DNA from: Tautonia plasticadhaerens
GTDB taxonomy: Bacteria; Planctomycetota; Planctomycetia; Isosphaerales; Isosphaeraceae
Length of the DNA: 64,000 nt
Reading direction: 5' to 3'
Assembly (NCBI RefSeq): GCF_007752535.1
Contig: NZ_CP036426.1
Span: forward strand, 2,108,001-2,172,000
The notes beneath the pieces were generated by a model. It saw only the letters and a list, made by a program, of their open reading frames with translations, was not told the origin of the DNA and ran no database searches. The position numbers were made by a program, and so were the translations under genes. Shown here one piece after another: positions 11,298-38,114 of the stretch. Position 1 is the first letter of the stretch, and each line of letters opens with the position of its first letter.

Positions 11298-11317
11298 CGA
11301 TGCGAATCGATGCGAAT
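11298..11317. repeat. Tandem 10-bp direct repeat in a divergent promoter region
   Basis: CGATGCGAAT occurs twice without a gap, directly upstream of the small minus-strand gene starting at 11283 and in the gap before the plus-strand diguanylate cyclase. It could be a regulator-binding site or a chance duplication. Confidence 0.5.
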
Positions 11318-13667: not shown

Positions 13668-15074
13668 TCAGCCCCGGACGACGGCCCCGATCGCCCCCGC
13701 GATGCGGTCGTCGTCCTCCTCGAAGACCGCCCTCAGGTCGAACCAGAGGGCCCCCGCCTGCACCCGGCAGACGACACCCGGCTCTCCCTCCCGGAGGGCC
13801 CGGCTCGCCTCCGATGCCCCAGGACACCGGCCCGGCAAGGGCGGTTCGATGCGGACCGAAACCGACGGGATCGCCTCGCCCGGCGCGCTGCCCCCGCCGA
13901 CGTAGGAAACCGAGTCGGCCGACGCCGCCCCCAGTCCGAACTCCTCCCGCAACCGATCCGACAGCCGATCGGCCCGGCCCCGGAGCGATTCGACCGGCGT
14001 CGCAAGGAAGGCCCAGAGCGGGATCGATCGGCTCGCCCGAGACGGGTCGAGGGCGATCCGGAGCGTCGCCTCCAGCGCCGCCAGGGTCATCTTGTCGACC
14101 CGGAGGGCCCGCATGAGCGGGTCGGCCTCGATTCGGCGGATGACCGCCTCCCGGCCGATCAACAGCCCGCATTGCGGCCCGCCGAGCAGCTTGTCGCCGG
14201 AGCAAAGCACAAGGTCGGCCCCGGCCTGCACGCCTTCGAGCACCGTCGGTTCCTCAACCACGACCGGCGGGCGACCGGGGCCGAGGGCCCCGGATCCGAC
14301 GTCGTCGATCGTCAGGACCCCCCGGGATCGGCCGAGCGCGGCCAGCTCCGAGATCCCGACCGACTCCGTGAAGCCGACGATCCGGTAGTTGCTCGGATGG
14401 ACCCGGAGCAGGGCGGCCGTGTCGGGGCCGATGGCCCGCTCGTAGTCCGAGAGCCTCGTCCTGTTCGTGGTGCCGACCTCCCGGAGCCGGGCGCCCGACG
14501 CCTCGAAGACCTCCGGCAGCCGGTAGCTGCCGCCGATCTCGACCAGCTGCCCCCGGGAGACGACCACCTCCCGGCCCGTCGCCAGGGCCCGGAGCGCGAG
14601 CATCGTGGCCCCGGCGTTGTTGTTGACGACCGTCGCCGCCTCGGCACCGGTCAGGCGTCGGATCAGCCCGGCGACCCCGTCCGCCCGACGACCCCGATGC
14701 CCCGACTCCAGGTCGAACTCCAGGTTGCAATACCCCGACGCCACCCGGGCGACCGCCTCGACCGCCTCCCTCGCCAGAGGCGCCCGGCCGAGCCCGGTGT
14801 GCAGCAGGATGCCGGTGGCGTTGATGACCGGCCGCAGGATCGGCCGGTCGGAGGCGAGGCGATCGGCGGCCGACCTCGCCAGCGCCCCCGGGTCGACCTC
14901 GATCGCCTCCCCCCGGGCGATCCGGGACCGGGCGTCATCCAGGGTCGACCGGACGGCCGAGAGGACCGCGTCCCGGCCGAGCCGGTCGATCGATCCCGCC
15001 AGCGGGCCCGAGGCGAGCAGCTCGTTGACCGGCGGTAAGCGGCGGAACGGGGAGGGGTCGTCACGGTCGGGCAT
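13668..15074 (-). CDS. selA: L-seryl-tRNA(Sec) selenium transferase
   Basis: PLP enzyme that converts seryl-tRNA(Sec) to selenocysteyl-tRNA(Sec) with selenophosphate. Typical blocks are seen: RLPPVNELLA, NATGILLHTGLGRAPLA, VVNNNAGATMLALRALA, REVGTTNRTRLSDYE, and the PLP lysine in CSGDKLLGGPQCGLL (about residue 294). 468 residues, normal length. The ATG at 15074 lies inside the end of selB (14-base overlap), the classic coupled selB-selA arrangement. I see neither selC nor selD in the window. Confidence 0.96.
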   Translation of the reverse strand: MPDRDDPSPFRRLPPVNELLASGPLAGSIDRLGRDAVLSAVRSTLDDARSRIARGEAIEVDPGALARSAADRLASDRPILRPVINATGILLHTGLGRAPLAREAVEAVARVASGYCNLEFDLESGHRGRRADGVAGLIRRLTGAEAATVVNNNAGATMLALRALATGREVVVSRGQLVEIGGSYRLPEVFEASGARLREVGTTNRTRLSDYERAIGPDTAALLRVHPSNYRIVGFTESVGISELAALGRSRGVLTIDDVGSGALGPGRPPVVVEEPTVLEGVQAGADLVLCSGDKLLGGPQCGLLIGREAVIRRIEADPLMRALRVDKMTLAALEATLRIALDPSRASRSIPLWAFLATPVESLRGRADRLSDRLREEFGLGAASADSVSYVGGGSAPGEAIPSVSVRIEPPLPGRCPGASEASRALREGEPGVVCRVQAGALWFDLRAVFEEDDDRIAGAIGAVVRG

Positions 15075-17010
15075 CGTCGGCCCCCGAGGCTGCGGGGCCG
15101 AGGCGTCGGAGGTCCCCGTCCCGGAGGGTGAGGCCGACGCGGTCGAGGTATTCGCCGATCGGCACGGCATACTTGCGGCTGGTCCGGAGCAGGTCCCGGA
15201 GGTCGGCCATCGTCATCGTCGAGCCCTCGGAGGAGAGGCGTCCGACCACCCGTCGGCGCAGCTCCGCGTCGGCCTCGGGGTCGAGGTAGAGCGCCCTCGG
15301 CTCGACCGGGGCGAGGTGCCCTTCCTCGGCCAGCAGGTCGAGCAGCTCGGGGACGATCGCCGCCCGCTGCCCGGCATTCTCCGCCAGTTCCGAGGCGAGC
15401 GGGGGGGCGAATCCGGCCCCCCGGTGGGCCTCCAGCAGCTCGTTCTTCAGGCGACGCTCGGCCTGGGTCAGTTGCGGCTGGTATCCGGCGATCGACACCG
15501 TCCGATCCGTCGCCGAGAGGCGTCGGGCGGCGTCCAGGCGGTCGATCAGGGCGGCCACGAGGGACTCGCTCCTCAGGTCGGACAGCTCCCCCAGCACGCT
15601 CGACCGCCGGACCCCGGAGAGCCTCGGGTTCCTCCGATGCAATCGTTCGACCGCCCGGACCACCCGGTCCTCCAGCTCGGCCAGGTAGGCGCGGGTCAGG
15701 CGGACCGACCGGCGGGGTCCGGTGGGCAGGTCGACCAGCTCGCCCGCCTCCCGGGCCTCCGAGACGATCCGCCCGACCTCGCCCGGCGAGAGGCCGGCGT
15801 CCCGGGCGAGGTCGTGGTCGGTCCAGGGCTCGAGCCGATAGGACGAGAGGGCGGCCCCGGCCCGTTCGATCGGGGCGTCGCTCGACAGTCGGACGAGCCG
15901 GCCCCGGCCGTCGAGGTCCCGGCGCCGGATCCGGGCGGCGACCGGCTGGAGGATCCGGCCGCCGCCGAGGGTCCAGGGGGGGCTCTCCTCCCGGATCACG
16001 AACGGCTGGCCGTGCTCGGCGACGACCCGCTCGGAGAGGAACAATTGGACAAGCCCCTCCGACCCCGGGGCCAGCTCCGGGCCGTCGAACACGACCACCG
16101 ACGCGGCCACCTCCGCCGTCCCCAGGTGGACCCGATACCGGCCCCGGTGGCGGATCGGCCGGGGGGCGTCCGTCGACGCCCGGACCGAGGCCGAGAGGAC
16201 CGTCGACGGCCTCAGGAACCCGGGGGAGGCCAGCTCCTGTCCCCTGCGGATCTCGGTGTGGTGCACCCCCGCCAGGTTGATCGCCGCCCGGGATCCCCGG
16301 GCGATCCGGTCGGCCGCCCGGTCGTGGCGGTGCAGGCCCCGGACCCGGACCGGTCGGCCCTCGGGGAGCCAGTCCACCTCGTCACCCACGGCCACCGACC
16401 CGGACACGACCGTGCCCGTGACCACCGTGCCGTGCCCGGCCACGGTGAAGCAGCGGTCGATCGCCATCCGGAACGGCCGGTCCTCCTCGGCCCGATCCGG
16501 CAGGGCGAGCACGGCGTCGGCCAGGGCGGCCCGGAGGGCGTCGATCCCCTCGCCGGTCGCCGAGGAGGTCCGGAGGATCGGGGCCCCTTCCAGGAACGTC
16601 CCGGCGACGAGCGCCCGGACGTCTTCCGAGACGAGGTCCAGCCAGTCCGGGGCGGCGAGGTCGCACTTGGTCAACGCCACCAGGCCGGAACGGAGGCCGA
16701 GCAGGCGGAGGATCTCCAGGTGCTCCCGGGTCTGGGGCATCACCGAGTCGTCGGCGGCGACGACGAGCAGGGCGAGGTCGAACCCCGTGGCCCCGGCCAG
16801 CATGTTGCGGATGAACCGCTCGTGCCCGGGCACGTCGACCAAGCCGAGCCGGGCGCCTCCCAGGTCGAGCGCGGCGAAGCCCAGGTCGATCGTGATCCCG
16901 CGCTGCTTCTCGGCCGGGAGCCGATCGGTGTCGACCCCGGTCAGGGCGCGGACCAGCGCCGTCTTGCCGTGGTCGATGTGTCCGGCGGTGCCGAGGATGA
17001 GGTCGCGCAC
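15061..17010 (-). CDS. selB: Selenocysteine-specific elongation factor SelB
   Basis: Delivers Sec-tRNA to UGA codons marked by a SECIS hairpin. GTPase motifs: GTAGHIDHGKT (G1), DVPGHERF (G3) and TKCDL (G4). The elongation-factor-like domains II and III follow, then the winged-helix array, ending in the mRNA-binding last winged helix (RKYAVPIGEYLDRVGLTLRDGD). Because the SECIS-reading end is intact the protein should be functional. I chose the GTG at 17010 directly before the first beta strand (VRDLILGTAGHID), giving 649 residues; the ribosome site there is weak. The upstream in-frame ATG at 17250 would add 80 Pro/Gly/Arg-rich residues of shadow coding. Confidence 0.95.
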   Translation of the reverse strand: MRDLILGTAGHIDHGKTALVRALTGVDTDRLPAEKQRGITIDLGFAALDLGGARLGLVDVPGHERFIRNMLAGATGFDLALLVVAADDSVMPQTREHLEILRLLGLRSGLVALTKCDLAAPDWLDLVSEDVRALVAGTFLEGAPILRTSSATGEGIDALRAALADAVLALPDRAEEDRPFRMAIDRCFTVAGHGTVVTGTVVSGSVAVGDEVDWLPEGRPVRVRGLHRHDRAADRIARGSRAAINLAGVHHTEIRRGQELASPGFLRPSTVLSASVRASTDAPRPIRHRGRYRVHLGTAEVAASVVVFDGPELAPGSEGLVQLFLSERVVAEHGQPFVIREESPPWTLGGGRILQPVAARIRRRDLDGRGRLVRLSSDAPIERAGAALSSYRLEPWTDHDLARDAGLSPGEVGRIVSEAREAGELVDLPTGPRRSVRLTRAYLAELEDRVVRAVERLHRRNPRLSGVRRSSVLGELSDLRSESLVAALIDRLDAARRLSATDRTVSIAGYQPQLTQAERRLKNELLEAHRGAGFAPPLASELAENAGQRAAIVPELLDLLAEEGHLAPVEPRALYLDPEADAELRRRVVGRLSSEGSTMTMADLRDLLRTSRKYAVPIGEYLDRVGLTLRDGDLRRLGPAASGADDARP

Positions 17011-17194
17011 GATTCGGTCGTCGCCCCGGGTGAGTTCGTCCCCCCGCCACCATAGCGGACGCGGGGCGGGGCAGGAAGCGGGCCATCGCCCTCGGATCCG
17101 AAGGCCGGGGGGCGCGGGGCGGGGCCGGTCGGCCCCGCGCGACTCCCCCGCGTCCCCCCGGCCGGGGGCCGTCCCGTTCCGCCCGGATCCGCTC

Positions 17195-17223
17195 TTGACC
17201 CGCCCCGCGGGCGAGGGCATACT
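17195..17223 (+). promoter_or_regulatory. Predicted sigma70-type promoter for the exopolysaccharide cluster
   Basis: TTGACC (17195-17200) and CATACT (17218-17223) are 17 bases apart, pointing toward the WecA-like gene at 17592. This would give a leader of about 360 bases that includes the 14-codon frame. Confidence 0.42.
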
Positions 17224-17353
17224 ACGGCCGCTCGATCGACCGGCCGGCAAGGATGCTCATCAGGGAATGATCGCAGCACCCTCGCCCCGGATCGGGCCAC
17301 CTCGCCCCCGGACGACACCCTCAGCGCGACATCAGGGAAGGAGCACGCTGACC

Positions 17354-17398
17354 ATGAATGCGACCCACCGGAACGGCCGAACCGCCCCCCGACGTTGA
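17354..17398 (+). CDS. Possible 14-residue leader peptide
   Basis: An ATG at 17354 follows AGGGAAGGAG at a spacing of 10 bases and opens MNATHRNGRTAPRR before a TGA. It lies between the predicted promoter and the WecA-like gene. Only position and ribosome site support it; composition cannot help at this length. Confidence 0.2.
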   Translation: MNATHRNGRTAPRR

Positions 17399-17591
17399 CC
17401 GGGCCCCCGGGTCGGCCTCGTGCCGACCCGCCCCGGATCGACGGGGAGCCCCGGCCGAGTGCGGCCCCCTCGCCGTTGTACCGGATCAAAGGATTCGCTT
17501 TCGAGCACGGATGCGAGCGAGTCGAGCCGCGCCCCCGGCGGGCGAAGGGACGGCTCCGCGCGTCCGGGCCGGATGGAGCTGGTGCCGGTCC

Positions 17592-19268
17592 ATGACGCCC
17601 GATTCCTACCTACTCGTCTTCGCGCTGTCGTTCCTCGGCTGCGTGCTGGCCACGCCGATCGTCACCCGACTGGCCGTCCTGGCCGGGGCGATCGACCGCC
17701 CGGACCAGTTCCGCCGCATCCACAAGGGGGCGACCCCCAGATTGGGGGGCCTGGGCCTGGCCGTGGGGCTGGCCTCGGGCCTGGTGCCCCTGGTCCTCGG
17801 CGGCCTGATGCCGGACTGGCCGGGCCTGGGGGCCTGGGCCGACTCGCTCCCCTGGATCGGCCTGGCGGCCGGCGTCGTCCTGTCGCTGGGGGTGGTCGAC
17901 GACACGATCGGGGTCGGCCCCCGGGCCAAGCTCGTCGTCCAGGGGGTCGCGGTCCTGCTGCTCTATGCCGGCGGCATCCGGATCGAGTCGGTCGAGATCC
18001 TCGGCCTGGAACTCTCGCTGAGCCTGCCGATGTCGTTCGTCCTGCCGGGACGCGGGGGGGAGTGGCTCATCGACCTGCCGAGCGTGGCGATCACCCTGCT
18101 CTGGTTCCTCGGCTGCATGAACATCTGGAACCTGATCGACGGCATGGACGGGCTCGCCTCCGGCGTCGGCCTGCTCGTGGCCGGCACGCTGATGCTGGTG
18201 GCCGTCGCGCTGGCCAACTACGGGTCGGCCCTGATGGGGGCGGCGCTCGCCGGCGGCCTCGCCGGCTTCCTGCTCTACAACTGGCACCCGGCCTGCATCT
18301 TCCTGGGGGACAGCGGCAGCCTGCTGATCGGCATGCTGATCGGCGTGATCGGCATCCAGGGCTCGCTCAAGGGGACGATGGCCGTCTCGATCCTGCTGCC
18401 GATCCTGGCGATGGGGCTGCCGATCTCCGACACGGCCCTGGCCATCTTCCGGCGCTGGGTCCGCAACCTCCCGCTCACGGCCGCCGACCGCAGGCACGTC
18501 CACCACGTCCTGATCGGCCTGGGGCTGAACCCGAGGCAGGCGGCGGCGATGCTCTACAGCTTCACGGCGTTCCTCTGCGGGGTGGTCCTGCTGGGGGTGG
18601 CGATGCGGAGCGACGTGCTCGCCCTGATCCTGGGCAGCTCCGGCTGCTCGGCGTTCGTGCTGATCCTCTACAGCCGCCGCAACGAGCTGGCCGAGCTGCG
18701 GCAGGACCTGGCCTCCCGGATGGTCCGGGGCGGCCAGGAGCGCCGGGCCGCCAAGGCGACCTGGGAGGCGATCCAGCGGGTCGAGCTGGCCCCGGACGCG
18801 ACACGGGTGCTGGGCATCCTCGCCGAGACGGCCGAGGCCCTCGGCTGCACCGCCTGCCGGCTGGCCTTCCGGGGGCAGGGGATCGCGGCCGAGCGGCTGG
18901 ACCTCGGCCGATGGCCCCGGGACGGCGTCGACCTCGTGTCGGGGCCGACGGCCAACCTCCGACTCTTCGGGGCCGGCGACGCGCTGCTCACCGTGGACCT
19001 CCACCTCTGCGACCGCTCGGACCTCGCGTCCGACATCGCCTTCCGCTTCCTCCAGCGCCTCTCGTTGGCCAGCAGCGAGCGCCTCGGCCGCCTGGCGGCC
19101 GACGGGGCGCTCGGGCGTCCCGCCGGGTCGGAGCCCGGCGAGGAGGACGACGCGGAGTCGAGGGGCGGCACCCTGGTGCTCTCCCCGACCCCCGCCGGGC
19201 TGGCGAGCGGCTGGCCCGAGCCGGCCGGGGCCCCCGGCCGCTCCTCCCGGACCCCCGACACCGACTGA
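17592..19268 (+). CDS. WecA/MraY-type polyprenyl-phosphate sugar-1-phosphate transferase with a long soluble tail
   Basis: Probably starts exopolysaccharide synthesis by placing a sugar-1-phosphate on undecaprenyl phosphate at the inner membrane. The first ~350 residues are a multi-helix PNPT domain with GVVDDTIGVGPRAKL, NIWNLIDGMDGLASG, FLGDSGSLLIG and the His-rich RRHVHHVLIGLGL loop. The remaining ~200 residues are soluble: a coiled linker (NELAELRQDLASRM) and an alpha/beta domain (LGILAETAEALGCTACRLAFRG, LLTVDLHLCDRSDLASDIAFRF) that resembles a GAF-like fold, then a disordered end. Standard WecA proteins end after the membrane domain, so this extension may be a sensor or docking module. 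The start at 17592 is the first ATG before the first helix. Confidence 0.88.
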   Translation: MTPDSYLLVFALSFLGCVLATPIVTRLAVLAGAIDRPDQFRRIHKGATPRLGGLGLAVGLASGLVPLVLGGLMPDWPGLGAWADSLPWIGLAAGVVLSLGVVDDTIGVGPRAKLVVQGVAVLLLYAGGIRIESVEILGLELSLSLPMSFVLPGRGGEWLIDLPSVAITLLWFLGCMNIWNLIDGMDGLASGVGLLVAGTLMLVAVALANYGSALMGAALAGGLAGFLLYNWHPACIFLGDSGSLLIGMLIGVIGIQGSLKGTMAVSILLPILAMGLPISDTALAIFRRWVRNLPLTAADRRHVHHVLIGLGLNPRQAAAMLYSFTAFLCGVVLLGVAMRSDVLALILGSSGCSAFVLILYSRRNELAELRQDLASRMVRGGQERRAAKATWEAIQRVELAPDATRVLGILAETAEALGCTACRLAFRGQGIAAERLDLGRWPRDGVDLVSGPTANLRLFGAGDALLTVDLHLCDRSDLASDIAFRFLQRLSLASSERLGRLAADGALGRPAGSEPGEEDDAESRGGTLVLSPTPAGLASGWPEPAGAPGRSSRTPDTD

Positions 19269-19298: not shown

Positions 19299-21578
19299 AT
19301 GGAGCGGACCATCCTCCCCTACGGCGGCCTCCCCGCCCACCCGAGCGACCGGGCCCCCGCCCCGGGCGGCCCCCCGACCCTCTCGGTGCACGCCGGCCAC
19401 CCGACCGGCTTCGGGCACGCCCCGGGCCACCCCCAGGGGCAGGGCAAGGGGGCGGGCGACTACCTCCGCGCCCTGCGTCGCCGGTTCTGGCTGCTCACGC
19501 TCGTCACCGGCCTTCTGGCGACCATCGGCACGGTGGCCGTCCTGAAGCTGAAGCCGGTCTACCGGGCGTCGGCCCAGATCGAGGTCATGCCGCCGCAGTT
19601 CGACTCGATCCTCGCTAGCCTGCTCGCCGACGAGGAGATCAACCTCAACGCCATGCGCGCCGAGCAGTACGAGGCGAACCTGCTGGCCAGGCTCCGCAAC
19701 CCCCAAATCGTCCGGATCGCCCTGAAAAACCCCCGGATCGGCCCGCCGATCAGGTCGGAGGAGGACCCGGCGATCGAGCTGATCAAGGAGCTGAAGACCA
19801 ACCAGCTCCCCCGGACCTCGGTCTACGACATCCACCTGGAAGGGGACGACCCCTACCGGGTCTCGACGATCCTCAACGTCTGGCTCGAGGAGTACGAGCG
19901 GGCGGCCGAGTCGGAGGTTACTGACAAGATCGACAACTCCCGGATCGCCGCCGAGAACAACGTCAAGAAGATGTACGACGAGCTGGACCGGATCAACCGG
20001 GACATCGGCGAGATGATGGCCCAGTCCCCGAACCTCTCGCCCGACGGCACCAACCACCTGCACAAGCAGTATGAGTCGCTCGGCCTGGAGAAGCGGCAGA
20101 AGCAGATCAGCATCGACCAGCTCCAGCACCAGCTCTTCCTCGCCCGGATGTTCCCGAAGGAGCAGGCCCCGCACCTGGCCGTCGACCAGCGGGAGATGTC
20201 CCAACTGATGGAGGACCGCCGGGCCCTGGACCTGAAGATCGACCAGGTCACCCGGATCGTCCGCAACCCGAGGGACCCGGCGATCAACCGCCTGATGAAC
20301 ATGAAGGCGGACCTCGACGACCAGCTCCATGCCCTCCGGGACTCGACCGTTCAGGCCGCCTCCCCCCGGGGCGAGCCGGCCGAGGCCTACTTCTCGCAGT
20401 ACCGCGAGGTGCTCACCGGCGAGCTGACCCGGATCACCGAGGAGGAGCAGGCCGTCATGCGGGACATCCAGCGGGGCGCCGCCGACCACAACCGGTTCAA
20501 CACCAAGCTCGAGGAACGCCTCCGCACCGCCGAGGCCATCGCCTCGCTCCAGGCGAAGATCGACCAGTTCGAGGTCCTCTCCAAGACCCAGAACAAGCCG
20601 GTCGAGGTCGTCCAGCTCGCCACCGCCTCGACCAAGCCGGTGCGGCCGGGCTACACGATGTTGCTGGTGCTGGTCGGCCTGATGTCGATGGGATCGGGCC
20701 TCGGCCTGGTCTTCCTGCTGGAGCACCTCGACCACTCGGTCCGGGCCCCCGAGCAGTTGACGACCGGGCTGACCCTGCCGCTGCTGGGGGTCGTCCCCCA
20801 CATGAGGCGGACCGCCCGGCTCCAGCGCGGCGGCCACCTCTGGACGGCCGGGGCCCCGATGTCGGCCGAAGCCGACGCCTACCGGAACCTGAGGGCGAGC
20901 CTCGTCGGCCTGACCTGCCCGCAGGGCAAGCCGGCCGTCACCCTGCTGGTCACCAGCTCCAAGGCCGGCGAGGGGAAGAGCACGACCGCCCTGAACCTGG
21001 CCGCCACCTGCGCCCGGTCCGGCGAGCGGACCCTGCTGCTGGAGGTCGACCTCCGGCGCCCCAGCCTCCGCCCCGTCTTCGACGAGGGGGACCACGACCT
21101 CGGCCTGGTCGACGTGCTCCGGGGGGAGATGCCCTGGCAGCGGACGGTGGTCCGGACCGACGAGCCGAACCTCGACTTCCTCCCCTCGGGTGACCCCTCG
21201 GGCGTGCCGGTCGAGGTGCTCGGCGCCCTGGAGATGAAGCAGCTCATCGCCGCCGTCTCCGGCCACTACGACCGGGTGATCCTGGACGGCCCGGCGATCC
21301 TCGGCCTGGCCGACTGCCGGATGCTCGGCCGGGTGGTCGACGCCGCCGTGCTGGTCGTCCGGGCCGGGGCGAACGACCTCCGCCCGGTGGTCCGGGCCCG
21401 GACGATGCTGGAGCAGTCCCGGGCGCCGATCGTCGGCGTGGTCTTCAACGGGCTCTGCGAGGACGTGAAGAACTGGTCCTGCGTCTCGGCCTACCTGGAC
21501 GAGGAGGCCGAGGCCGACGCCCGGGCCCTCCCCGCCCGCCCGGGCCGGGCGGCCGGGGCGCTGGCCGCCGCCGACTGA
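19299..21578 (+). CDS. Wzc-like polysaccharide chain-length regulator fused to a tyrosine-kinase-type ATPase
   Basis: 759 residues. After a flexible Gly/Pro/His-rich start comes a Wzz domain bounded by two transmembrane helices (RRFWLLTLVTGLLATIGTVAV near 55-80 and MLLVLVGLMSMGSGLGLVFLL near 450), with a long coiled-coil periplasmic part between. The cytoplasmic BY-kinase domain has Walker A SSKAGEGKSTTALNLAA (near 550-565), Walker A' LLLEVDLRRPSL and Walker B VILDGPAIL. The C-terminal tail has one tyrosine (SAYLDEE) and no tyrosine cluster, so autophosphorylation control may differ from E. coli Wzc. It lies 30 bases after the WecA-like gene and is probably co-transcribed with it. Confidence 0.92.
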   Translation: MERTILPYGGLPAHPSDRAPAPGGPPTLSVHAGHPTGFGHAPGHPQGQGKGAGDYLRALRRRFWLLTLVTGLLATIGTVAVLKLKPVYRASAQIEVMPPQFDSILASLLADEEINLNAMRAEQYEANLLARLRNPQIVRIALKNPRIGPPIRSEEDPAIELIKELKTNQLPRTSVYDIHLEGDDPYRVSTILNVWLEEYERAAESEVTDKIDNSRIAAENNVKKMYDELDRINRDIGEMMAQSPNLSPDGTNHLHKQYESLGLEKRQKQISIDQLQHQLFLARMFPKEQAPHLAVDQREMSQLMEDRRALDLKIDQVTRIVRNPRDPAINRLMNMKADLDDQLHALRDSTVQAASPRGEPAEAYFSQYREVLTGELTRITEEEQAVMRDIQRGAADHNRFNTKLEERLRTAEAIASLQAKIDQFEVLSKTQNKPVEVVQLATASTKPVRPGYTMLLVLVGLMSMGSGLGLVFLLEHLDHSVRAPEQLTTGLTLPLLGVVPHMRRTARLQRGGHLWTAGAPMSAEADAYRNLRASLVGLTCPQGKPAVTLLVTSSKAGEGKSTTALNLAATCARSGERTLLLEVDLRRPSLRPVFDEGDHDLGLVDVLRGEMPWQRTVVRTDEPNLDFLPSGDPSGVPVEVLGALEMKQLIAAVSGHYDRVILDGPAILGLADCRMLGRVVDAAVLVVRAGANDLRPVVRARTMLEQSRAPIVGVVFNGLCEDVKNWSCVSAYLDEEAEADARALPARPGRAAGALAAAD

Positions 21579-21648: not shown

Positions 21649-23214
21649 GTGGGCACCTTCCGAACCCGCATCCTCGAATGGACCGACCGCCTCCAGGCCG
21701 CCCTGCTGGTGGCGATGCTCGTCGGCTCGGCCCTGGCCTTCGGCGGGGCGGTCTGGTGGTGGCGGCCGGTCGCGGCGGCCCTGGCCGTCGGCCTGGTCGT
21801 GCTCGGGTTCTCCCGGGTGGCGATCGAGGGCCGGGCCCGGATCCGGCTCAGCCCGCTGCCGATCCTCGGCGTGTTGGCCCTGGGCCTGGCGGCCGCGCAG
21901 CTCACGCCGGTGCCGTCGGGCCTGGCTCGTCGGCTCTCCCCGGAGTCCCGGTCCCTGCACTCCCGGGGGATCCTGACCGGCCTGGCCCTGCAGGACGACC
22001 GGGCGGCCGAGCTGCCCGAGGCGCTCGCCTCCCGGACCCCGACGACGGTCGACCGCTCGGCGACCCTCCGGTGGCTGTTCGACGCGAGCATCGGCCTGGT
22101 CGTCCTGGTCACCTCGGCCCGGTTCGCCCGGAGGCTGGGGCGCACGATGGTCATCTGGGGGAGCGTGGTCGCGGTCTTCGGGCTGATGACCGGGGTCGGC
22201 CTGGTCCAGTTGATCGGCGACGCGCCGGGCCTCTGGGGGTTCATCACCCCGGGCCGGGGGCCGAGCTGGGCGCCCTCGACCCTGGACCTGCTCGCCGCCC
22301 CCGGCGCCTCGGTGCTGCGGCCGCTGGCGGAGGAGGGGGGGGCGCTCGGGCCCTGGATGCTGGCCCGGCCGGATCGGCCGTTCTTCATCGGCGGGCTCCT
22401 GGGGGGCCCGGGGGCGTACCTGGCGATCGCCGCGCTGGGCCTGCCGCTGTCGCTGACGGTCCTGCTCCAGGTGCTCGCCCCGAGGGGGAGCCGGGAGCCG
22501 ATGGCGGAGCGGATCGGCCGGGCGGGGCTCGGGCCCCTGGTGGTGCTGCTCGGGGTGGTGGTCCTGGTGGGGGCCGGGCTCGTCGGCGCCCTGGCCGGGC
22601 CGATGCTGGCCGTGCCGTTCGCCCTGGGACTGGCCCTCGCGGGCGTGCCGGGGGCCAGGGGGACGGGGCTCGGGTGGCTCGCGGTGGGGGTCACGCTGCT
22701 CGGCCTCACGGGGCTGGGGACCGGGGTGGCGATCCACCGGCTGGCGGGGCTCGGCGACGACCCGAAGCTCTCCCCGATCACCGCCGAGCCGGGCCGGGCC
22801 GCCGACCTCTGGCGGGGCTCGGTCGAGGTCGTCAAGGACTTCCCCCTGCTGGGCACCGGCCTGGGGACCTTCGGCCGGATCCACCCCTCGTACAAGTCGA
22901 CCGACCCGAGCCCGACGACCGCCGGCAGCAGCGTGCTGCAATGGCTCGTCGAGTCGGGGATGGCCGGGGGGGCGATCCTGGCAGTCGCCGGGCTCTGGGG
23001 GCTGGGGAGGCTGGTCCGGGCCTGGCGACGGGTGGGATCGGCCGACCGGGCCCTGGCCTGCGGGCTGGTCGCCACGGCGGGCTGCTTCGTCGGGTTCGCG
23101 GCGGTGCACTGGGCGGTGGAGCTGCCCGCCGTCGCCCTGGCGGCCTGCGCCGTCTTCGGGACGATGGATCGCTGGCTCTCCGGCGGGACCGACCTGTTCG
23201 TCGAGGCCGCCTGA
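21649..23214 (+). CDS. O-antigen ligase/polymerase-like membrane protein
   Basis: 521 residues with about ten hydrophobic helices and a periplasmic loop. The segment LLGTGLGTFGRIHPSYKS and then SSVLQWLVESGMAGGAIL is the signature of Wzy/WaaL-type polysaccharide polymerases and ligases (Wzy_C region). It starts at a GTG (21649) after ACCGGAGACGCCC. Position between the Wzc-like regulator and the exosortase genes supports polymerisation or transfer of the repeat unit outside the inner membrane. Ligase and polymerase roles cannot be separated from sequence alone. Confidence 0.82.
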   Translation: MGTFRTRILEWTDRLQAALLVAMLVGSALAFGGAVWWWRPVAAALAVGLVVLGFSRVAIEGRARIRLSPLPILGVLALGLAAAQLTPVPSGLARRLSPESRSLHSRGILTGLALQDDRAAELPEALASRTPTTVDRSATLRWLFDASIGLVVLVTSARFARRLGRTMVIWGSVVAVFGLMTGVGLVQLIGDAPGLWGFITPGRGPSWAPSTLDLLAAPGASVLRPLAEEGGALGPWMLARPDRPFFIGGLLGGPGAYLAIAALGLPLSLTVLLQVLAPRGSREPMAERIGRAGLGPLVVLLGVVVLVGAGLVGALAGPMLAVPFALGLALAGVPGARGTGLGWLAVGVTLLGLTGLGTGVAIHRLAGLGDDPKLSPITAEPGRAADLWRGSVEVVKDFPLLGTGLGTFGRIHPSYKSTDPSPTTAGSSVLQWLVESGMAGGAILAVAGLWGLGRLVRAWRRVGSADRALACGLVATAGCFVGFAAVHWAVELPAVALAACAVFGTMDRWLSGGTDLFVEAA

Positions 23215-23289: not shown

Positions 23290-26200
23290 ATGCGAGACGA
23301 GGCCTTTCTGCACATCCGGTCCCGGGACGGGCGGGCGACCCGGATCGTCCCCCTGTCGGGGCCGAGCGTCCGGGTCGGCCGGGGCCGGTCGTGCGAGGTC
23401 CGGCTCGACGACCCGACCCTCGCCGAGGTCGAGTTCCTGCTCCGGCGCCGGGGGGACTCCTACCACCTGCAGCCGGTCCGGCCGGACTCCCGGCTGACCA
23501 TCGACGGCCGCCCCGCCGACCGCCCCCGGCCGCTGGCCATGGGCACCACGCTCCGGCTCGCCGACCGCTGGCTCACCCTCCTGCCGACCGACGACGCGCC
23601 GGAACTCGACGGCAACGGACCCGACGCCCCCCCGGGCGAGGCCCCCGAGGCCTTCCCCCCCGGGGCGGAGTCGGGGGCGGAGGCCGAGCCGGACCCGGAT
23701 CCCGACGAGCCCGAAGCCCTGGACGGCCGACGGGAGGAACTGGCCCGCTGGGAGTCCCGGCTCAAGCAGCGGGAACGCTGGCTCTCCGACCGCCTGCACG
23801 AGCGTCAGTGGGAGGCCCGATGGCGGGCCGCCGGGGCGTCGCTGAAGGCCCGAAGCCGGCCCGCCGACGCCGCCTCCCCCCGCCCCCGATCGGCCCCGAG
23901 GCCCGCCCCGATCCCGACCCCGACGGTCGCCCCCGGGCCGCCGATCCGCCCCCGGAGGGGGGTCGAGCCCGCCCCCTACGGGCCCCCGACCGCCCGGGTC
24001 GACCGACCCACGTCGGGCCTCCCGCCTGCCCCCGCCCCGGCGCCGCCCCCCCGGGCCGTCGTCCCCCCGATCGCCCGACCCGGACCGACCGCCCCCCGGC
24101 CCCGGTCCGAGTCCCCCGGCCCGGAGGGGCCGGGCCCCGTCCCCCGGGCCATCCGCCTGATCCCCAAGGTCGTCGAGGCCCCGACGCGTCGGCCCGGCCT
24201 CGCCTTGAGTTTCCCCCCCGAGGTCGTCGAGACGGTCATCGAGATCGACGAGAGCGACCCCGAGCCGGCCGACCAGCGGCCGGGGCCGGTCGACGCCGAT
24301 CCGGAGGGCCCGGGATGCCTCGCCGAGGGGCTCGCGATCGACCCGGACCTCGCCGAATCCGTCGAGACCGACCGGGGTGTCGCCGAATCCGTCGAGACCG
24401 ATCCGGGATCGGCCGAGGCCACCTCGATTCCGATCCCCGAGCCACCCGAACGGGGCAACGCGGAGGCGGAATGCCCCACCATCCCGGTCGCGATCGGGGC
24501 CTCGACCCTCGCCGTCGTCCCCTCCCCGGACCTCGATCCCGCCGTCGACTCGGGGTCCGGGCTCCCGGAGAGCCGGTCGGATGCCTCGGATGCCGAGGCC
24601 CCCGAGGTCTCGACGGGGTTGATGCCCTCGGGGGTCGGCGGCGAGCCGGTCGGCCTGGCGTCCGAGGCCGAGGCCGTCGAGACGAGGACCGGCCCCGAGG
24701 CCGTCGGCGGGGAGGCATCGGCGTGGCTCTCGGTGCCGATGCTCGGCCTGAACGACCTGGTCTCGTTCCTCAGCCGTTCGGCCCGGCCCGGCACGCAGGA
24801 CGGTCCCCCGGCCGGGGGAGGCGAGGCCCGAGGCGGGCCGATCGAAGACGCCGTCGGGGCGGTCGAGACGGCCTCCCCGACAGGCCCGGAGGAGCCAAGC
24901 GAGGAGGCCGTCGTCCCGCATCAGGAAGTGAGGGACGAGGACGAGGTCGAGGACGAAGTCGAGCAGGAGCAGGAAGAGGCCACGGCCTGGGCAGCGGGCC
25001 CCGCCGAGGCGACGGGCACGGGTCCCTCGGGCGGTCCCTCGAACGATTGGCCTTCGGCGAACGCGATCCTCGGGGCCCGGCCCGGCCGGGGGCCAAGGCG
25101 GGCAGCGTCCCGGGCGAGGAAGGCGGCGAGCTTCCCCGAGCCGACCGGCCGGATCTCGCCGGACGAGTGGACCATCCCCGGGGGGGCCTGGCTCTGCATC
25201 CCGATGATGTTCGCCGCCCTGGCGGCGGGGGTGGTCGGGGTGAGGCTGGCCTGGACCTGGGCCGTGCTGGACCGGGAGTCGGGCCGGATCGCCGACCGGC
25301 TCGCCTCGGGCAAGCGGCCCGAGGCGGGGTCGATCGACCTGCTGCTGGAGCGGGAGCTGGAGCTGCCGATGGCCTCGTGGCGGAACAGCACCGCCGACGC
25401 GATGGTCGCCCGGGCGGCTCTGCTGGCCGGGCCGGGGCCGGGGGCGGACCCGGCCTCCCAGGAGCGGGCCGGCGGCCTGATCCACGCCGCCGGGGCCGCC
25501 TCCCCCAACCACCCGGGGTTGCGGTTCGCCCGGGCCTGGCGGGCGGTGCAGGAGCCGGGGGCCGACGCCCCGAGCCTGGCCGTCGGCCTGAGCCGGGACA
25601 TCTGGCCGCTGGCCTGGTCCGGCCGAGCCCTGCTGGCGGCCGGGAAGCAGGACGAGGCGAGGCGGTGCTACCTGAAGGCCCTGGACCTGGCCTGCCGGGC
25701 CTCGCCGGACGAGTCCCCGGCGCCGGTCTTCCACGGGGAGCCCCAGGGCGGCCGCTTCGGCATGCCGCTGGAGGGGATCCTCGGCGTGGTCGTCTCGGAC
25801 ATGGCGGACCGGCCCGAATGGTCGTCGGGCGACTGGCTGGGGCTGATCCCCGACTCCTCGGTCGCCTGGCTGGTCGCCACCCGGGTGCTCCGGCAGCGGG
25901 GGGACGGCGAGGCCGACCGGGCCCTGGAGCGGGCGATCGCCCTGGCGGACTCGCCCGCGCCGGGGGGCTGCTCCGAGGCGATCCACCTGGCCGCCGTCGC
26001 CGAGGCGATGGCCCTGGACGGCCGGGTCGAGGAGGCGGTCGAGGGCTACCGCCGGGCGGTCGACCGGCTGACCGCGGCCGAGGAGTCGGCCCGGAGGCCC
26101 TGGCTGTTCAACCTGGCCGAGCTGCTCGGCCGGCTCGACGACCGGGACGGCGAGCGCGAGGCCCTGCTGGCGGCGATGACCACCGACCCGGACGACCCCG

Positions 26201-26319
26201 TCACGGCCGAGGCCATCCGGGCGCAGCTGCGCCGGGGGGTCGACCTGGTCGGAGCCGGCCCCGACGGCGGCACCGGCGGGGGCGGCGAGGGGGACCGACG
26301 CGACACCTTCGGAGAGTGA
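23290..26319 (+). CDS. FHA-like / coiled-coil / acidic linker / one-TM / helical-repeat protein
   Basis: 1009 residues; the ATG at 23290 follows GGAGGAGGAG. Residues 1-95 read as an FHA domain (PSVRVGRGRSCEVRLDD, YHLQPVRPDSRLTIDGRPA), but the usual SxxH phosphothreonine-contact motif is replaced by LAEVEF, so binding may be lost or altered. Residues ~145-190 form a charged coiled coil (RREELARWESRLKQRERWL). A long Pro/Glu/Asp-rich linker follows, with a 10-residue tandem repeat (ESVETD). One hydrophobic helix lies near residue 630 (CIPMMFAALAAGVVGVRLAW). The C-terminal third is TPR/Sel1-like helical repeats (ALERAIALADSPA, EEAVEGYRRAVDRLTAAEE). The likely topology is FHA inside and repeats outside. 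It is wedged between the ligase-like and exosortase genes; I know of no established role. Confidence 0.72.
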   Translation: MRDEAFLHIRSRDGRATRIVPLSGPSVRVGRGRSCEVRLDDPTLAEVEFLLRRRGDSYHLQPVRPDSRLTIDGRPADRPRPLAMGTTLRLADRWLTLLPTDDAPELDGNGPDAPPGEAPEAFPPGAESGAEAEPDPDPDEPEALDGRREELARWESRLKQRERWLSDRLHERQWEARWRAAGASLKARSRPADAASPRPRSAPRPAPIPTPTVAPGPPIRPRRGVEPAPYGPPTARVDRPTSGLPPAPAPAPPPRAVVPPIARPGPTAPRPRSESPGPEGPGPVPRAIRLIPKVVEAPTRRPGLALSFPPEVVETVIEIDESDPEPADQRPGPVDADPEGPGCLAEGLAIDPDLAESVETDRGVAESVETDPGSAEATSIPIPEPPERGNAEAECPTIPVAIGASTLAVVPSPDLDPAVDSGSGLPESRSDASDAEAPEVSTGLMPSGVGGEPVGLASEAEAVETRTGPEAVGGEASAWLSVPMLGLNDLVSFLSRSARPGTQDGPPAGGGEARGGPIEDAVGAVETASPTGPEEPSEEAVVPHQEVRDEDEVEDEVEQEQEEATAWAAGPAEATGTGPSGGPSNDWPSANAILGARPGRGPRRAASRARKAASFPEPTGRISPDEWTIPGGAWLCIPMMFAALAAGVVGVRLAWTWAVLDRESGRIADRLASGKRPEAGSIDLLLERELELPMASWRNSTADAMVARAALLAGPGPGADPASQERAGGLIHAAGAASPNHPGLRFARAWRAVQEPGADAPSLAVGLSRDIWPLAWSGRALLAAGKQDEARRCYLKALDLACRASPDESPAPVFHGEPQGGRFGMPLEGILGVVVSDMADRPEWSSGDWLGLIPDSSVAWLVATRVLRQRGDGEADRALERAIALADSPAPGGCSEAIHLAAVAEAMALDGRVEEAVEGYRRAVDRLTAAEESARRPWLFNLAELLGRLDDRDGEREALLAAMTTDPDDPVTAEAIRAQLRRGVDLVGAGPDGGTGGGGEGDRRDTFGE
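24350..24401 (+). repeat. Internal tandem repeat, 30-bp period
   Basis: A core of about 22 bases beginning TCGCCGAATCCGTCGAGACC occurs at 24350 and again at 24380, encoding two copies of AESVETD in the acidic linker of the FHA-like protein. Confidence 0.7.
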
Positions 26320-26331
26320 GGAGACGATCCC

Positions 26332-27282
26332 TTGGCCACGTCCACGATCTCGGCCCGAGACGACGACGCCCCCGCCCCTCGGGAATTGCCCGCGCTGGCG
26401 GGCCTGCTCCGGGACGGCTGGGCCCTCCCCGGGGGGAAGGTCGCGCTGCTGGGCGCCTCGGCGTGCCTGGCGCTGCTCGCCCTGGCCTTCCGGTCGACCC
26501 TCTGGCACTTCGCCCACGTCTGGTCGACCGACCCGAACTACAGCCACGGCTTCCTCGTCCCGCTGATCAGCCTGTACTTCGCCAACATGGCGGCCAAGGA
26601 GGGGCCCACCCGGCAGGTGCCGGGGGTCGCCCTCGGGGCGTCCCTGCTGGTGTTCGCCCTGCTGGGGAGGCTGGCGACGATCGTCGTGCCGGTGGGGTTC
26701 GCCAGCGACCTGGCCTTCCTGACCGGGCTGGCCGGGATCCTCTCGCTCTTCGCCGGGAGGGCGGCCCTGTACCGATACGGGTTCGCCCTGACGTTCCTGG
26801 TCTTCATGGTCCCGCTGCCGATCCACCTGTACACGACGATCGCCACCCCCTTGCAGCTGCTGGTGAGCAAGGTCGCCGCCACGATCCTCAACGGCGCCGG
26901 GCTGCCGGTGCTCTGCGAGGGCAACCACCTGACCCTGCCCGGCGGGGTCCGGATGTTCGTGGCCGAGGCCTGCAGCGGGATGAGGCAGCTGACCGGCTTC
27001 CTCGCGCTGACGACCGCCGTGGCCTTCCTGACCCCCCGGCCCCGCTGGTACCGGGCGGTCCTGATCGGCTCGGCGATCCCGGTGGCGCTGACGGCCAACG
27101 TGGCCCGGGTGGTGCTGACCGGCTGGATCATGTCGCACGACCCGAGGCTGGCGCAGGGGGCCTTCCACACCCTGGAGGGGCTCCTGCTGATGGGCTTCGG
27201 CCTGGCCCTGCTGAGGCTGGAGTGCGCGGTGCTCAACGTGCTGGTGGACGAGGAGCCCGAGCCCGTCCCCGCGGCGGCCTGA
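26332..27282 (+). CDS. Exosortase
   Basis: Inner-membrane cysteine transpeptidase-like enzyme that cleaves PEP-CTERM-type sorting signals. 316 residues, eight or so helices. The catalytic residues are visible: Cys214 in VAEACSGMRQL, Arg259 in TANVARVVL and His279 in FHTLEG; YSHGFLVPLIS near residue 70 is also typical. The start is a TTG at 26332 with GAGGAG eight bases upstream, just after the stop of the FHA-like gene. EpsI follows at once. No protein with a recognisable PEP-CTERM tail is encoded in this window, so its substrates lie elsewhere or use another signal. The Xrt subtype is not assigned. Confidence 0.93.
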   Translation: MATSTISARDDDAPAPRELPALAGLLRDGWALPGGKVALLGASACLALLALAFRSTLWHFAHVWSTDPNYSHGFLVPLISLYFANMAAKEGPTRQVPGVALGASLLVFALLGRLATIVVPVGFASDLAFLTGLAGILSLFAGRAALYRYGFALTFLVFMVPLPIHLYTTIATPLQLLVSKVAATILNGAGLPVLCEGNHLTLPGGVRMFVAEACSGMRQLTGFLALTTAVAFLTPRPRWYRAVLIGSAIPVALTANVARVVLTGWIMSHDPRLAQGAFHTLEGLLLMGFGLALLRLECAVLNVLVDEEPEPVPAAA

Positions 27283-31168: not shown

Positions 31169-32995
31169 ATGCGTTCATTCGATGTCCGTTGGCGTCCGAT
31201 CCTGGGCCCGGCCGGGCGACGAGGCCCGGGGGGGCGACGGCGGCCCGTTCCGCGGCTCGAGCCGCTGGAAGCGAGGGAACTGCTGGCGATCGTCGTCGAC
31301 ACGTTCGACGACGTGATTGCGGATGACGGGCTCACAAGCCTGCGAGAGGCGATCGAACTGGCCGAATCGTGGGGAGGAGCGGACACGATCGAGGTGCCGG
31401 CCGGGACCTATGCGTTGGACCTGGGGCAGCTCACGTTCGACGACGCCAGCGCCCCCGTGGCGGTCCGATCCACCGGCGGCCCGGCGACGATCGACGGCCG
31501 GGGCGCCAGCCGAGTGTTCCTGGTCGTCCAGGGCAGCGAGGTAGTGCTCGATGGCCTGGTGATCACCGGAGGCGTGGCCGACCTGGGGGGCGGCCTGCTC
31601 AATCTGGGGACGACGACGATCCTCGACAGCTCGTTCCTGGGGAACGAGGCCTTCGGCGGCGGCGGGATCTTCACCTTCCCCGGGAGCACCACCGTCGTTG
31701 ACGACAGCCTCCTCGAGGGCAATCAGGCGGTCTTCGGCGCCGGCATCTCCAACGCTGGAGTCCTGGCGATCCATGACGGCCGCTTCATCGACAACGTGGC
31801 CACCGGGGGCAACGGCGGGGGCATCGACTCGATCGGCGACGTGGTGATCGCCGAGAGCCGCTTCGAGGGGAACCGGGCCGACTTCGGTGGCGCCATCGGC
31901 AACGGGGGCACGATGGTCGTCCGGGACAGCACCCTGAGGGGCAATTCGGCGGCCGGGAACGCGGGTGGCGTCTTCAGCAACTTCGACGGGGTGCTGGAGA
32001 TCTCCGGCAGCGGGCTCGAGGGGAACTCGGCCGGAGGCTACGGCGGTGCCATCTCCACCTGGGGCGTCACGACGGTCGACGGGAGCACGATCGAGGGGAA
32101 TTCATCGGGCCTCGGCGGCGGCGGGATCGATCACTTCGTGGGCACCCTGGGCATCACCGACTCCGTCATCTCGGGCAACAGTGCCGGGTGGGACGGCGGC
32201 GGCATCCACAGCTTCGAGGGGGCCGGCCTGACGCTGATCGACGCGACGCTGTCCGGCAACTCGGCGCATTACGGCGGCGGGATCCGGATCGGTCGGGGCA
32301 CCCTGATCGCCGACCGCACCACGATGGTCGAGAACGTCGCGAACTTCGACGGCGGCGGCATCTCCGCCTTCTCCAACTCCACCACGTTGCTGGAGAGCGA
32401 GGTCTCCGGCAACGACGCCTTCGGCCGAGGCGGCGGCATCGAGGTCTCCGGCGGCTCGTCGACCATCGTCGGCTCGACCATCTCGGACAACTCGGCCTCG
32501 TACGCCGGGGGCGGGATCTTCGGCTCGAACGGGGCCCTGGTGACGGTGGCCGGGTCGACGCTCGCCCGCAACTCGTCCGACTTCGGCGGCGGAATCCTGA
32601 TCGAGTTCGGCGAGCTGGCCCTCCGCCAGACCACGTTGGCCGACAACCTGGCGCGATTCAACGGCGGCGGGATCTACAGCTTCTTCGGCACGACCAATGT
32701 GCAGGAGAGCACCCTGAGGGGCAACGAGGCCGGTCAGGACGGGGGAGGGATCTTCAACGTGGGCGACTTGACCGTCAGCGACGTGCACTTCGCCCACAAC
32801 AGCGCCGGCCGGAACGGCGGGGGGATCTTCAACGACGGCGTCACCCGGGTCTTCGACAGCATCTTCTCCGGCAACAAGGCCGCGAAGAGGACGGGGCTTG
32901 GCACCGCGATCTACACCACGATTGGCGGCATGCTGATCCTGGACGACCAGACCGTCATCAGCCAGAACGGCGTGGCGATCTACCAGGAGCAATAG
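31169..32995 (+). CDS. Secreted right-handed beta-helix protein with LEPR-XLL-like N-terminus
   Basis: 608 residues. The N-terminus is basic and runs into RLEPLEARELLA, a variant of the LEPR-XLL motif that heads many large exported planctomycete proteins in place of a classic signal peptide. Next is a CSLREAI-like block (LTSLREAIELA). From about residue 100 to the end are some 20 turns of a repeat of the form GNSA..GGGI, with S/T-rich strands between, as in parallel beta-helix and chlamydial Pmp-type proteins. There is no autotransporter barrel, membrane anchor or PEP-CTERM tail. It is probably a cell-surface or secreted structural/adhesive protein; carbohydrate lyase activity is possible but no catalytic site is visible. 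The ribosome site is GGGAGTGAG. Confidence 0.85.
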   Translation: MRSFDVRWRPILGPAGRRGPGGRRRPVPRLEPLEARELLAIVVDTFDDVIADDGLTSLREAIELAESWGGADTIEVPAGTYALDLGQLTFDDASAPVAVRSTGGPATIDGRGASRVFLVVQGSEVVLDGLVITGGVADLGGGLLNLGTTTILDSSFLGNEAFGGGGIFTFPGSTTVVDDSLLEGNQAVFGAGISNAGVLAIHDGRFIDNVATGGNGGGIDSIGDVVIAESRFEGNRADFGGAIGNGGTMVVRDSTLRGNSAAGNAGGVFSNFDGVLEISGSGLEGNSAGGYGGAISTWGVTTVDGSTIEGNSSGLGGGGIDHFVGTLGITDSVISGNSAGWDGGGIHSFEGAGLTLIDATLSGNSAHYGGGIRIGRGTLIADRTTMVENVANFDGGGISAFSNSTTLLESEVSGNDAFGRGGGIEVSGGSSTIVGSTISDNSASYAGGGIFGSNGALVTVAGSTLARNSSDFGGGILIEFGELALRQTTLADNLARFNGGGIYSFFGTTNVQESTLRGNEAGQDGGGIFNVGDLTVSDVHFAHNSAGRNGGGIFNDGVTRVFDSIFSGNKAAKRTGLGTAIYTTIGGMLILDDQTVISQNGVAIYQEQ

Positions 32996-35230: not shown

Positions 35231-36643
35231 ATGCCCTCGCCGAAGGACGCCCGAGTCGTGGCCGCCTCGCTGTACTTCCTGCCGATCGAGACGCGGGTGC
35301 CGCTCAAGTTCGGGCTGGAGACCCTGACGCACGTCACCTGCGCCCGGGTCCGGCTGACGGTGGTCGACGGGGCCGGGACTCGGGCCGAGGGGTGGGGGGA
35401 AACCCCCTTGAGCGTGCAGTGGGCCTGGCCGGGGCCGTCGACGTTCGAGGACCGGCTGGGGGCGATGCAAGCCTTCTGCGTCGAGCTGGCCGGGGCCTGG
35501 TGCGAGCCGGGCCTCGGGGCCGGGCACCCGATCGAACTGGGGCACCGGTTCCTGGAAGACCGCCTGCCGGGCCTGACGGATCGGTTCAACGCGCGTGAGC
35601 GGGCCGGGGCCGAGCCGATGCCGAGGCTGGCGGCCCTGATCTGCGCCTCGGCCTTCGACCTGGCGCTGCATGACGCGTACGCCCTGCTGAACGGAGTGCC
35701 CGCGTACCAGGCGTACGGCCCCGAGTTCATGGCGAATGACCTGGGCCGTTACTTGGAGCCGGAGGCGGGCGGCCCGTCCTTCGCCGGGAGGTACCCGGCC
35801 GACTTCCTGGCGAGCGACCCTCCCCGGTCGCTGCCCGCCTGGCACCTGGTGGGGGGGAAGGACCCGATCGACCCGTCCGAGCTGACGGGGGAAGAGCCCG
35901 ACGACGGCTACCCGGTCCTGCTCCGGGACTGGATCGCGCGGGACGGCCTGAAGTGCCTGAAGATCAAGCTGCGGGGGGATGACCCGGCCTGGGACTTCGA
36001 CCGGGTGGCCCGGGTGGGGCGGATCGCCGAGGAGTCGGGGGTAGACTGGCTCTCGACCGACTTCAACTGCACCGTGCGGGACCCGGACTACGTCGACGAG
36101 ATCCTCGACCGCCTGCTGCGGGACGAGCCGAGGACTTTCGGAAAAATCCTCTACGTCGAGCAGCCCTTCCCGTACGACCTGGAGGCGCACCGGGTGGACG
36201 TCCGCTCCGTCTCGGCCCGGAAGCCGCTGTTCATGGACGAGAGCGCGCACGACTGGAAGCTCGTCCGGCTGGGGAGGTCGCTCGGCTGGACCGGGGTGGC
36301 GCTGAAGACCTGCAAGACGCAGACGGGGGCGCTGCTCTCCGCCTGCTGGGCGAAGGCGCACGGCATGACCCTGATGGTGCAGGACCTGACCAACCCGATG
36401 CTCGCTCAGATCCCCCACGTCCTGCTGGCGGCCCACGCGGGGACGATCATGGGGGTGGAGACCAACGCGATGCAGTTCTACCCCGAGGCCTCCGGCCCCG
36501 AGGCGGCCGTGCATCCGGGGCTCTATGCCCGGAGGGGGGGGCGGGTGGACTGGTCGAGCGTGACCGGCCCGGGGTTCGGCTATCGGATCGCCGAGATCGA
36601 TCGGGCGTTGCCGGAACCGGCGGCGGAGGTCGGCGAGGGCTAA
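35231..36643 (+). CDS. Enolase-superfamily (mandelate racemase / muconate lactonizing type) enzyme
   Basis: 470 residues, longer than the usual 360-400. The alpha/beta capping domain and TIM barrel are present, with the KxK base motif in CLKIKL, metal ligands at STDFNCT, VEQP and FMDES, and a further Lys in VALKTCKTQTG. The family abstracts a proton next to a carboxylate; typical substrates are sugar acids or dipeptides. The insert around residues 150-230 (EFMANDLGRYLEPEAGG...) sets it apart from the common subgroups. The reaction is not assignable. The divergent neighbours are secreted sugar-like proteins. Confidence 0.86.
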   Translation: MPSPKDARVVAASLYFLPIETRVPLKFGLETLTHVTCARVRLTVVDGAGTRAEGWGETPLSVQWAWPGPSTFEDRLGAMQAFCVELAGAWCEPGLGAGHPIELGHRFLEDRLPGLTDRFNARERAGAEPMPRLAALICASAFDLALHDAYALLNGVPAYQAYGPEFMANDLGRYLEPEAGGPSFAGRYPADFLASDPPRSLPAWHLVGGKDPIDPSELTGEEPDDGYPVLLRDWIARDGLKCLKIKLRGDDPAWDFDRVARVGRIAEESGVDWLSTDFNCTVRDPDYVDEILDRLLRDEPRTFGKILYVEQPFPYDLEAHRVDVRSVSARKPLFMDESAHDWKLVRLGRSLGWTGVALKTCKTQTGALLSACWAKAHGMTLMVQDLTNPMLAQIPHVLLAAHAGTIMGVETNAMQFYPEASGPEAAVHPGLYARRGGRVDWSSVTGPGFGYRIAEIDRALPEPAAEVGEG

Positions 36644-36689
36644 GCGGCCCGGGCCCCGACTCGGATTGACGGGGAGGGGAGGCGGCCCT

Positions 36690-38057: not shown

Positions 38058-38114
38058 GGGGATCGGGCATCGGCATCGGGCGGACGGGCGACGGATCGAT
38101 CGAGGAGTTCGCAC

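Follow-up and report, generated by a model that had tools for sequence, protein, structure and literature searches.

The protein encoded between a polymer-ligase-like gene and an exosortase gene of Tautonia plasticadhaerens would be, in our reading, a scaffold or adaptor subunit in the inner membrane, belonging to a machine that combines Wzy-type polymer assembly with an exosortase, a proposal to which we assign a probability of about 0.5. Its gene occupies 23290-26319 on the forward strand of the window, i.e., the whole 64,000-nucleotide stretch analyzed here (G000:C1:2108001-2172000, in a genome of 9,395,224 bases and six contigs; T. plasticadhaerens ElP is described with an 8.67-Mb chromosome and five plasmids in PMC7716859). 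A single open frame runs from the ATG at 23290 to the stop codon ending at 26319 and codes for 1009 residues, for which "giant", the word of an earlier note made from the letters of this DNA, is too strong. The longest version of the frame opens earlier, at a GTG at 23215. However, GGGAGGAGGAG lies directly upstream of the ATG at 23290, and the motif M.(E/D)...LHI found in relatives aligns with a start at this codon. The protein and its parts are as follows.

23290-26319, forward strand: FHA - linker - membrane helix - TPR protein, 1009 residues
23290-23604, forward strand: FHA-fold domain, residues 1-105, with A45, E48 and S67 in place of the phosphothreonine-contact Ser, His and Asn, and R31 kept
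23605-25179, forward strand: Pro/Asp/Glu-rich linker of 525 residues; the conserved motif W-x-x-R-W-(K/R/Q)-A, in this protein WEARWRA, lies close to its start
25180-25269, forward strand: hydrophobic segment, residues 631-660, taken as a single membrane helix from Kyte-Doolittle hydropathy and the C-terminal model
25270-26316, forward strand: region of TPR-like helical repeats, residues 661-1009, assigned to the periplasm; model, profile and fold matches

The order of the domains, namely, FHA fold, 525-residue linker, one hydrophobic segment and TPR-like C-terminus, agrees with the layout proposed in the earlier note. The linker consists of 17% Pro, 18% Asp/Glu and 9% Lys/Arg. Its W-x-x-R-W-(K/R/Q)-A motif, which occurs in 24 of the 32 relatives that have the FHA and TPR parts in one frame (0.01 expected from shuffling), follows the FHA domain and closes the stretch previously called a coiled coil. 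Kyte-Doolittle analysis alone was used to locate the hydrophobic segment, the only one in the protein, between the FHA domain and the repeats.

The identity of the N-terminal domain was assessed with profiles and with a structure model. Pfam FHA scored 23 bits on the whole protein, above its cut-off of 20.7, and Yop-YscD_cpl remained below its curated cut-off of 33.2, with 27.5 bits on the whole protein and 32.7 bits on the domain alone. At E 0.01, Yop-YscD_cpl matched 25 of 25 rows and FHA 21 of 25, the window protein being among the rows. Within its own genome the domain ranked 32nd of 35 FHA matches, with 28.9 bits. A phmmer search with the FHA domain alone against the Protein Data Bank (PDB) gave no match. 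The AlphaFold2 model of the domain had a predicted local distance difference test score (pLDDT) of 83.7, and FHA domains (Ki67, Rv0020c and EmbR) headed the PDB matches returned by both fold tools. Ki67 superposed on the model with template modeling (TM) scores of 0.74 to 0.88 and a Z score of 16.2 over 100 residues at 1.8 Å; the YscD structures 4a0e and 4d9v were also among the fold matches. A non-FHA fold was thus rejected, and the structure check suggested for this domain returned the fold that had been proposed.

The binding pocket is altered. We take the usual phosphothreonine contacts of FHA domains to be an Arg, a Ser, a His and an Asn. In a profile alignment to Ki67, the Ser corresponds to A45, the His to E48 and the Asn to S67, and the loop Arg is R31. 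Of 37 aligned rows, one (L053) was dropped because the frame changes inside the domain; over the 36 used, Arg31 was retained in 33, and Ser, His and Asn in a single row each. Arg28, Gly30 and Cys35 were invariant over the same rows. Cys35 and the polar residue following it are not special, because other FHA domains of the genome share them. By these alignments the domain is degenerate in nearly all relatives, in that the contact set (Arg, Ser, His/Asn) is incomplete while the fold is kept. The earlier note had read the domain as a degenerate FHA lacking the SxxH contact; this holds beyond the single protein, and Asn has also been lost.

The C-terminal part was modeled with a pLDDT of 84.4 as one long helix that carries the hydrophobic segment, followed by helix pairs. 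TPR_2 was detected at E 0.01 in 18 of 31 members, the window protein itself remaining below the cut-offs. As modeled, the C-terminal repeats are TPR-like.

The position of the gene is fixed among relatives. Of the 45 Isosphaeraceae genomes, 43 contain the C-terminal part, mostly as one strong match each, among them all 26 that reach 90% completeness with no more than 5% contamination; the two genomes without a match, G019 (77% complete) and G044 (74% complete), gave weak exosortase hits only. Among 42 fetched loci, EpsH lies downstream on the same strand in 40 (the contig ends first in L048 and L068), and Wzy lies upstream in 38 (a contig end cuts L063, L072 and L080, and the contig of L078 starts shortly upstream). 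EpsI was found in 37 loci, Wzc in 36 and the Glycos_transf_4 gene (GT4) in 35, and the strands agreed in all pairs that were measured. The same-strand order GT4-Wzc-Wzy-[FHA/TPR protein]-EpsH-EpsI was therefore seen in every measurable pair, the rest being limited by contig ends. A GDP-mannose dehydratase gene follows in 33 of the 42 loci and is missing in L079, L082 and L083 although these stretches extend far enough. The suspected constant neighborhood with exosortase and EpsI is thus supported, and the possibility that relatives reside mostly away from exosortases was rejected. A further 31 Isosphaeraceae loci found through EpsH largely repeat the contigs of the 42 and hence are not independent evidence.

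The FHA domain is the variable element at this position. Of 38 loci whose N-terminal side was available, 36 have FHA sequence (frame-broken in L053) and two have none. The latter, L071 and L073, represent both genomes of genus g15; the TPR part is present, and no FHA was detected using local profiles with filters off and Pfam to E 1. An overlooked FHA was rejected for the frame of the TPR part, other upstream frames having been searched via the open reading frame list only. In two of the three genomes of family f4 (L205 and L222), the order is Wzc - Wzy - X - EpsH - EpsI. Protein X is made up of linker, hydrophobic segment and TPR repeats, and Pfam detected no FHA in it. Because of these FHA-less proteins in the same slot, the shared core is probably the membrane-TPR protein, with FHA as an optional addition. 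The idea that FHA is the essential element is accordingly not supported.

In four relatives, L053 (identical to L119), L058, L065 and L067, the FHA and TPR parts are in different frames. The break lies inside the FHA domain in L053 and in the linker in L058 and L067, and a run of N is present in L065. Such breaks may reflect sequencing error, a broken gene or a split gene (for L065, an assembly gap).

Outside the family, profile A1 was used to search 347 genomes of the class and 392 of the phylum, the best 6 (class) or 5 (phylum) first-look candidates per genome being scored. Exosortases occur in 263 of the 347 class genomes, but strong A1 hits were restricted to the protein's own family, with at most 33 bits, weak and TPR-like, elsewhere in the class. 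The phylum set yielded two own-family genomes and three weak partial hits, the best with 43 bits. A widespread protein was rejected on these grounds for strong hits, and distant forms can be missed, since the candidate-limited searches did not find the f4 proteins. None of 89 control exosortase loci (30 from the rest of the class, 10 additional ones within the family and 49 from other phyla) had an A1 match above 30 bits; the 40 planctomycete loci among them were chosen from listed top matches, not at random. The distant f4 form is present in two of the 30 class control loci. The protein is thus associated with a single type of exosortase rather than with exosortases in general.

A different, soluble-looking FHA protein was observed near exosortases of another type in 7 of the 40 planctomycete control loci (L199:3872-5440, L200:7853-9541, L201:10555-12120, L207:10296-11981, L226:7181-8899, L227:11888-13201 and L232:6149-7462). 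Each of the four that were scanned (L199, L201, L226 and L227) has two FHA stretches. Of 56 relatives of the L227 protein in the family, 22 lie within 60 kb of an exosortase on the same contig, 14 within 25 kb and 5 within 3 kb; plasmid location may explain part of this closeness.

Divergence was compared over 29 loci holding all seven genes or parts, L053 being dropped. Mean pairwise identity was 0.46 for FHA, 0.45 for Wzc, 0.43 for Wzy, 0.33 for the TPR part and 0.58 for EpsH, and divergence among the parts of the cluster was correlated (0.80 to 0.94). In these alignments, the FHA domain is kept about as well as its Wzc and Wzy neighbors.

In the window itself, the gene is located between the Wzy_C ligase-like gene and epsH, as the earlier note had placed it. 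The cluster comprises the following neighbors.

17358-19268, forward strand: Glycos_transf_4 / WecA-like first-sugar transferase, by profile matches
19299-21578, forward strand: Wzc-like protein (Wzz plus ATPase of the bacterial tyrosine kinase [BY-kinase] type), by profile matches
21649-23214, forward strand: membrane protein resembling Wzy_C ligases/polymerases, at 27.8 bits short of the Pfam cut-off (31.7)
26332-27282, forward strand: exosortase EpsH, 200 bits
27310-28026, forward strand: EpsI-like protein (DUF3485), 95.7 bits
28150-29193, forward strand: GDP-mannose 4,6-dehydratase, by profile matches

Among named loci, that of Tautonia sociabilis (L120) has the closest EpsH, with 80% identity. 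With EpsH and EpsI as neighbors and PEP-CTERM proteins in the genome, this is an exosortase locus. PEP-CTERM gave 46 matches at E 0.1, of which 44 were over the cut-off (three of these 44 only with neighboring sequence); these proteins are possible sorting substrates. The Wzc-like neighbor scored 127.8 with the NCBIfam BY-kinase profile eps_fam (cut-off 108.05), and its Walker-type GxGKST and ILDGPA-type columns are conserved over 11 rows. A C-terminal tyrosine cluster is defining for BY-kinases; the last 70 residues of the Wzc frame contain 0 to 2 Tyr in 24 of 36 relatives and 3 to 5 in 12, the tail in L076 being unlike that of Wzc.

At its C-terminus, the WecA-like transferase is extended by approximately 200 residues with no Pfam match and might be a docking partner in the cytoplasm. 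Just downstream of the cluster, 31169-32995 encodes a 608-residue protein with polymorphic outer-membrane repeats of the Chlamydia type (Chlam_PMP, 41 bits). Further downstream, 35231-41536 encodes four glycosyltransferases and an enolase-like protein, as would be expected of a polysaccharide locus. Upstream are a GGDEF protein and the selenocysteine genes SelA and SelB (11214-12476 and 13668-17250). A second strong exosortase of the genome, G000:C5:52218-52985 (L233), is located on the 92-kb contig C5, which also carries three PEP-CTERM matches (35912, 36348 and 61469).

We propose that the TPR-like solenoid would lie in the periplasm and would hold the Wzy-like ligase and EpsH/EpsI together, or guide polymer or tagged proteins between these enzymes. 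In most Isosphaeraceae, a long flexible arm tipped with the FHA fold would extend into the cytoplasm and most likely dock on a partner of the same machine without a classical phosphothreonine pocket, candidates being the Wzc-type ATPase and the first-sugar transferase. The scaffold proposal draws on the fixed same-strand gene order, on the single strong match that most of the 43 genomes gave, on the TPR-like fold, on the retention of the membrane-TPR part where FHA is missing, on the conservation of FHA despite its lost contacts and on the presence of PEP-CTERM proteins as possible sorting substrates. Precedents come from TPR proteins with a part in the polymer export of other systems (PMC4443731) and from the TPR protein PrsT, which accompanies PEP-CTERM systems (PMC1569441).

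Several observations weigh against a scaffold. The TPR part is the fastest-changing piece of the cluster, which is unusual for a core scaffold, and the common gene order and the correlated divergence are evidence of shared descent rather than of contact. TPR proteins were the best Foldseek matches of the C-terminal model, but with TM scores of 0.20 to 0.36 only. The link between f4 protein X and the family profile is weak (hhalign probability 92%, E 5e-7), and generic TPR similarity may contribute to it, as the alignment covers mainly TPR-like columns. The proposed topology, with FHA inside and the TPR part in the periplasm, derives from one hydropathy peak and the type of the domains, and the charges flanking residues 631-660 give no clear topology signal.

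FHA domains normally read phosphothreonine, and the earlier note had proposed phosphorylation as the input. With an altered pocket and Arg31, the FHA domain could still bind a partner that is phosphorylated and switch polymer or protein export in response to a Ser/Thr kinase, on the model of mycobacteria, where the FHA domain of FhaA binds the intracellular part of Rv3910. The retention of Arg31, the 95 stretches matching Ser/Thr kinases in the genome at E 1e-10 and the appearance of the FhaA-Rv3910 complex structure (3oun) in the list of fold matches agree with such a sensor. However, Ser, His and Asn are almost never kept, four proteins in the same slot have no FHA, and the genome-wide kinase profile search (E 1e-10) placed no Ser/Thr kinase in the cluster, whose only kinase-like protein is of the Wzc type. 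The nearest match lies approximately 35 kb from the gene (window positions ~61005-61472, 72.8 bits, in an open frame of 2119 residues). We consequently regard phosphorylation as an input as rather unlikely. The loss of the contacts points instead to phosphorylation-independent docking, for which the YscD-like domains of type III secretion are a precedent. By extension, the Isosphaeraceae might possess one envelope machine in which this inside-out subunit physically holds the Wzy assembler and the exosortase, its degenerate FHA serving as a docking module as in type III rings and coupling the cytoplasmic ATPase to outside polymer assembly, sorting and joint delivery; this larger picture is doubtful.

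The TPR part might instead catch PEP-CTERM proteins and hand them to EpsH, much as the TPR lipoprotein LbcA delivers substrates to the protease CtpA. LbcA (7rqf) had the highest TMq among the 50 fold matches listed, albeit a low one (0.36), epsH is the next gene, and the genome encodes many PEP-CTERM proteins. Yet exosortases work without the protein, since most control exosortase loci lack an A1 match, and its position beside Wzy is as fixed as that beside EpsH, making a substrate adaptor unlikely. It is more improbable still that the FHA domain is a functionless remnant on a TPR protein. Its absence from L071, L073, L205 and L222, the lost contacts and the four relatives with FHA and TPR parts in different frames would fit a remnant, but R28, G30 and C35 are invariant, even if some of these are ordinary FHA residues, the identity of the domain is similar to that of Wzc and Wzy, and its fold was modeled with confidence.

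The reason why exosortase genes are placed in exopolysaccharide loci is, to our knowledge, unsettled, as is whether protein sorting and the assembly of the polymer are physically one process. A protein wedged between a polymer-ligase-like gene and an exosortase in 43 of 45 genomes, with natural forms that have or lack FHA, provides a handle on this link. T. plasticadhaerens produces matrix in abundance and adheres to plastic (PMC7716859), and a phenotype should therefore be measurable.

FHA domains, TPR proteins and exosortase/polymer loci are each known, but their combination in a fixed place appears to be undescribed. Literature searches joining exosortase with FHA domain or forkhead, and searches for a described relative of the protein, found no paper within a coverage that largely leaves out subscription journals. 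The protein resembles PrsT (Haft et al. 2006, PMC1569441) in that both are TPR proteins tied to exosortases and exopolysaccharide; PrsT differs in having a lipoprotein signal and in going with PrsK/PrsR. The Tautonia protein has an internal membrane segment and a cytoplasmic-side FHA arm, its N-terminus being the FHA domain in place of a lipoprotein signal. No NCBIfam family matched it up to E 0.1, including the PrsT model that this library presumably contains. With YscD/PrgH it shares an FHA-type N-terminal domain, which Yop-YscD_cpl matches in all rows, one membrane helix and an outside part. In contrast to the ring domains of those proteins, the outside part is TPR-like here, the linker is long and disordered-looking, and the surrounding genes are polymer and exosortase genes rather than those of type III secretion. 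FhaA (Rv0020c) of Mycobacterium tuberculosis, in complex with Rv3910 (3oun), likewise has an FHA domain acting on an envelope-precursor protein; FhaA presumably keeps its phosphothreonine site, whereas the FHA domain of the Tautonia protein has lost Ser, His and Asn. Proteins of the AlgK and PelB type are periplasmic TPR scaffolds of polymer export. Their TPR part, like that proposed here, would work between polymer synthesis and exit (PMC4443731). Those are synthase-dependent systems, whereas the Tautonia protein, encoded in a Wzy/exosortase locus, would reside in the inner membrane and carry a cytoplasmic arm.

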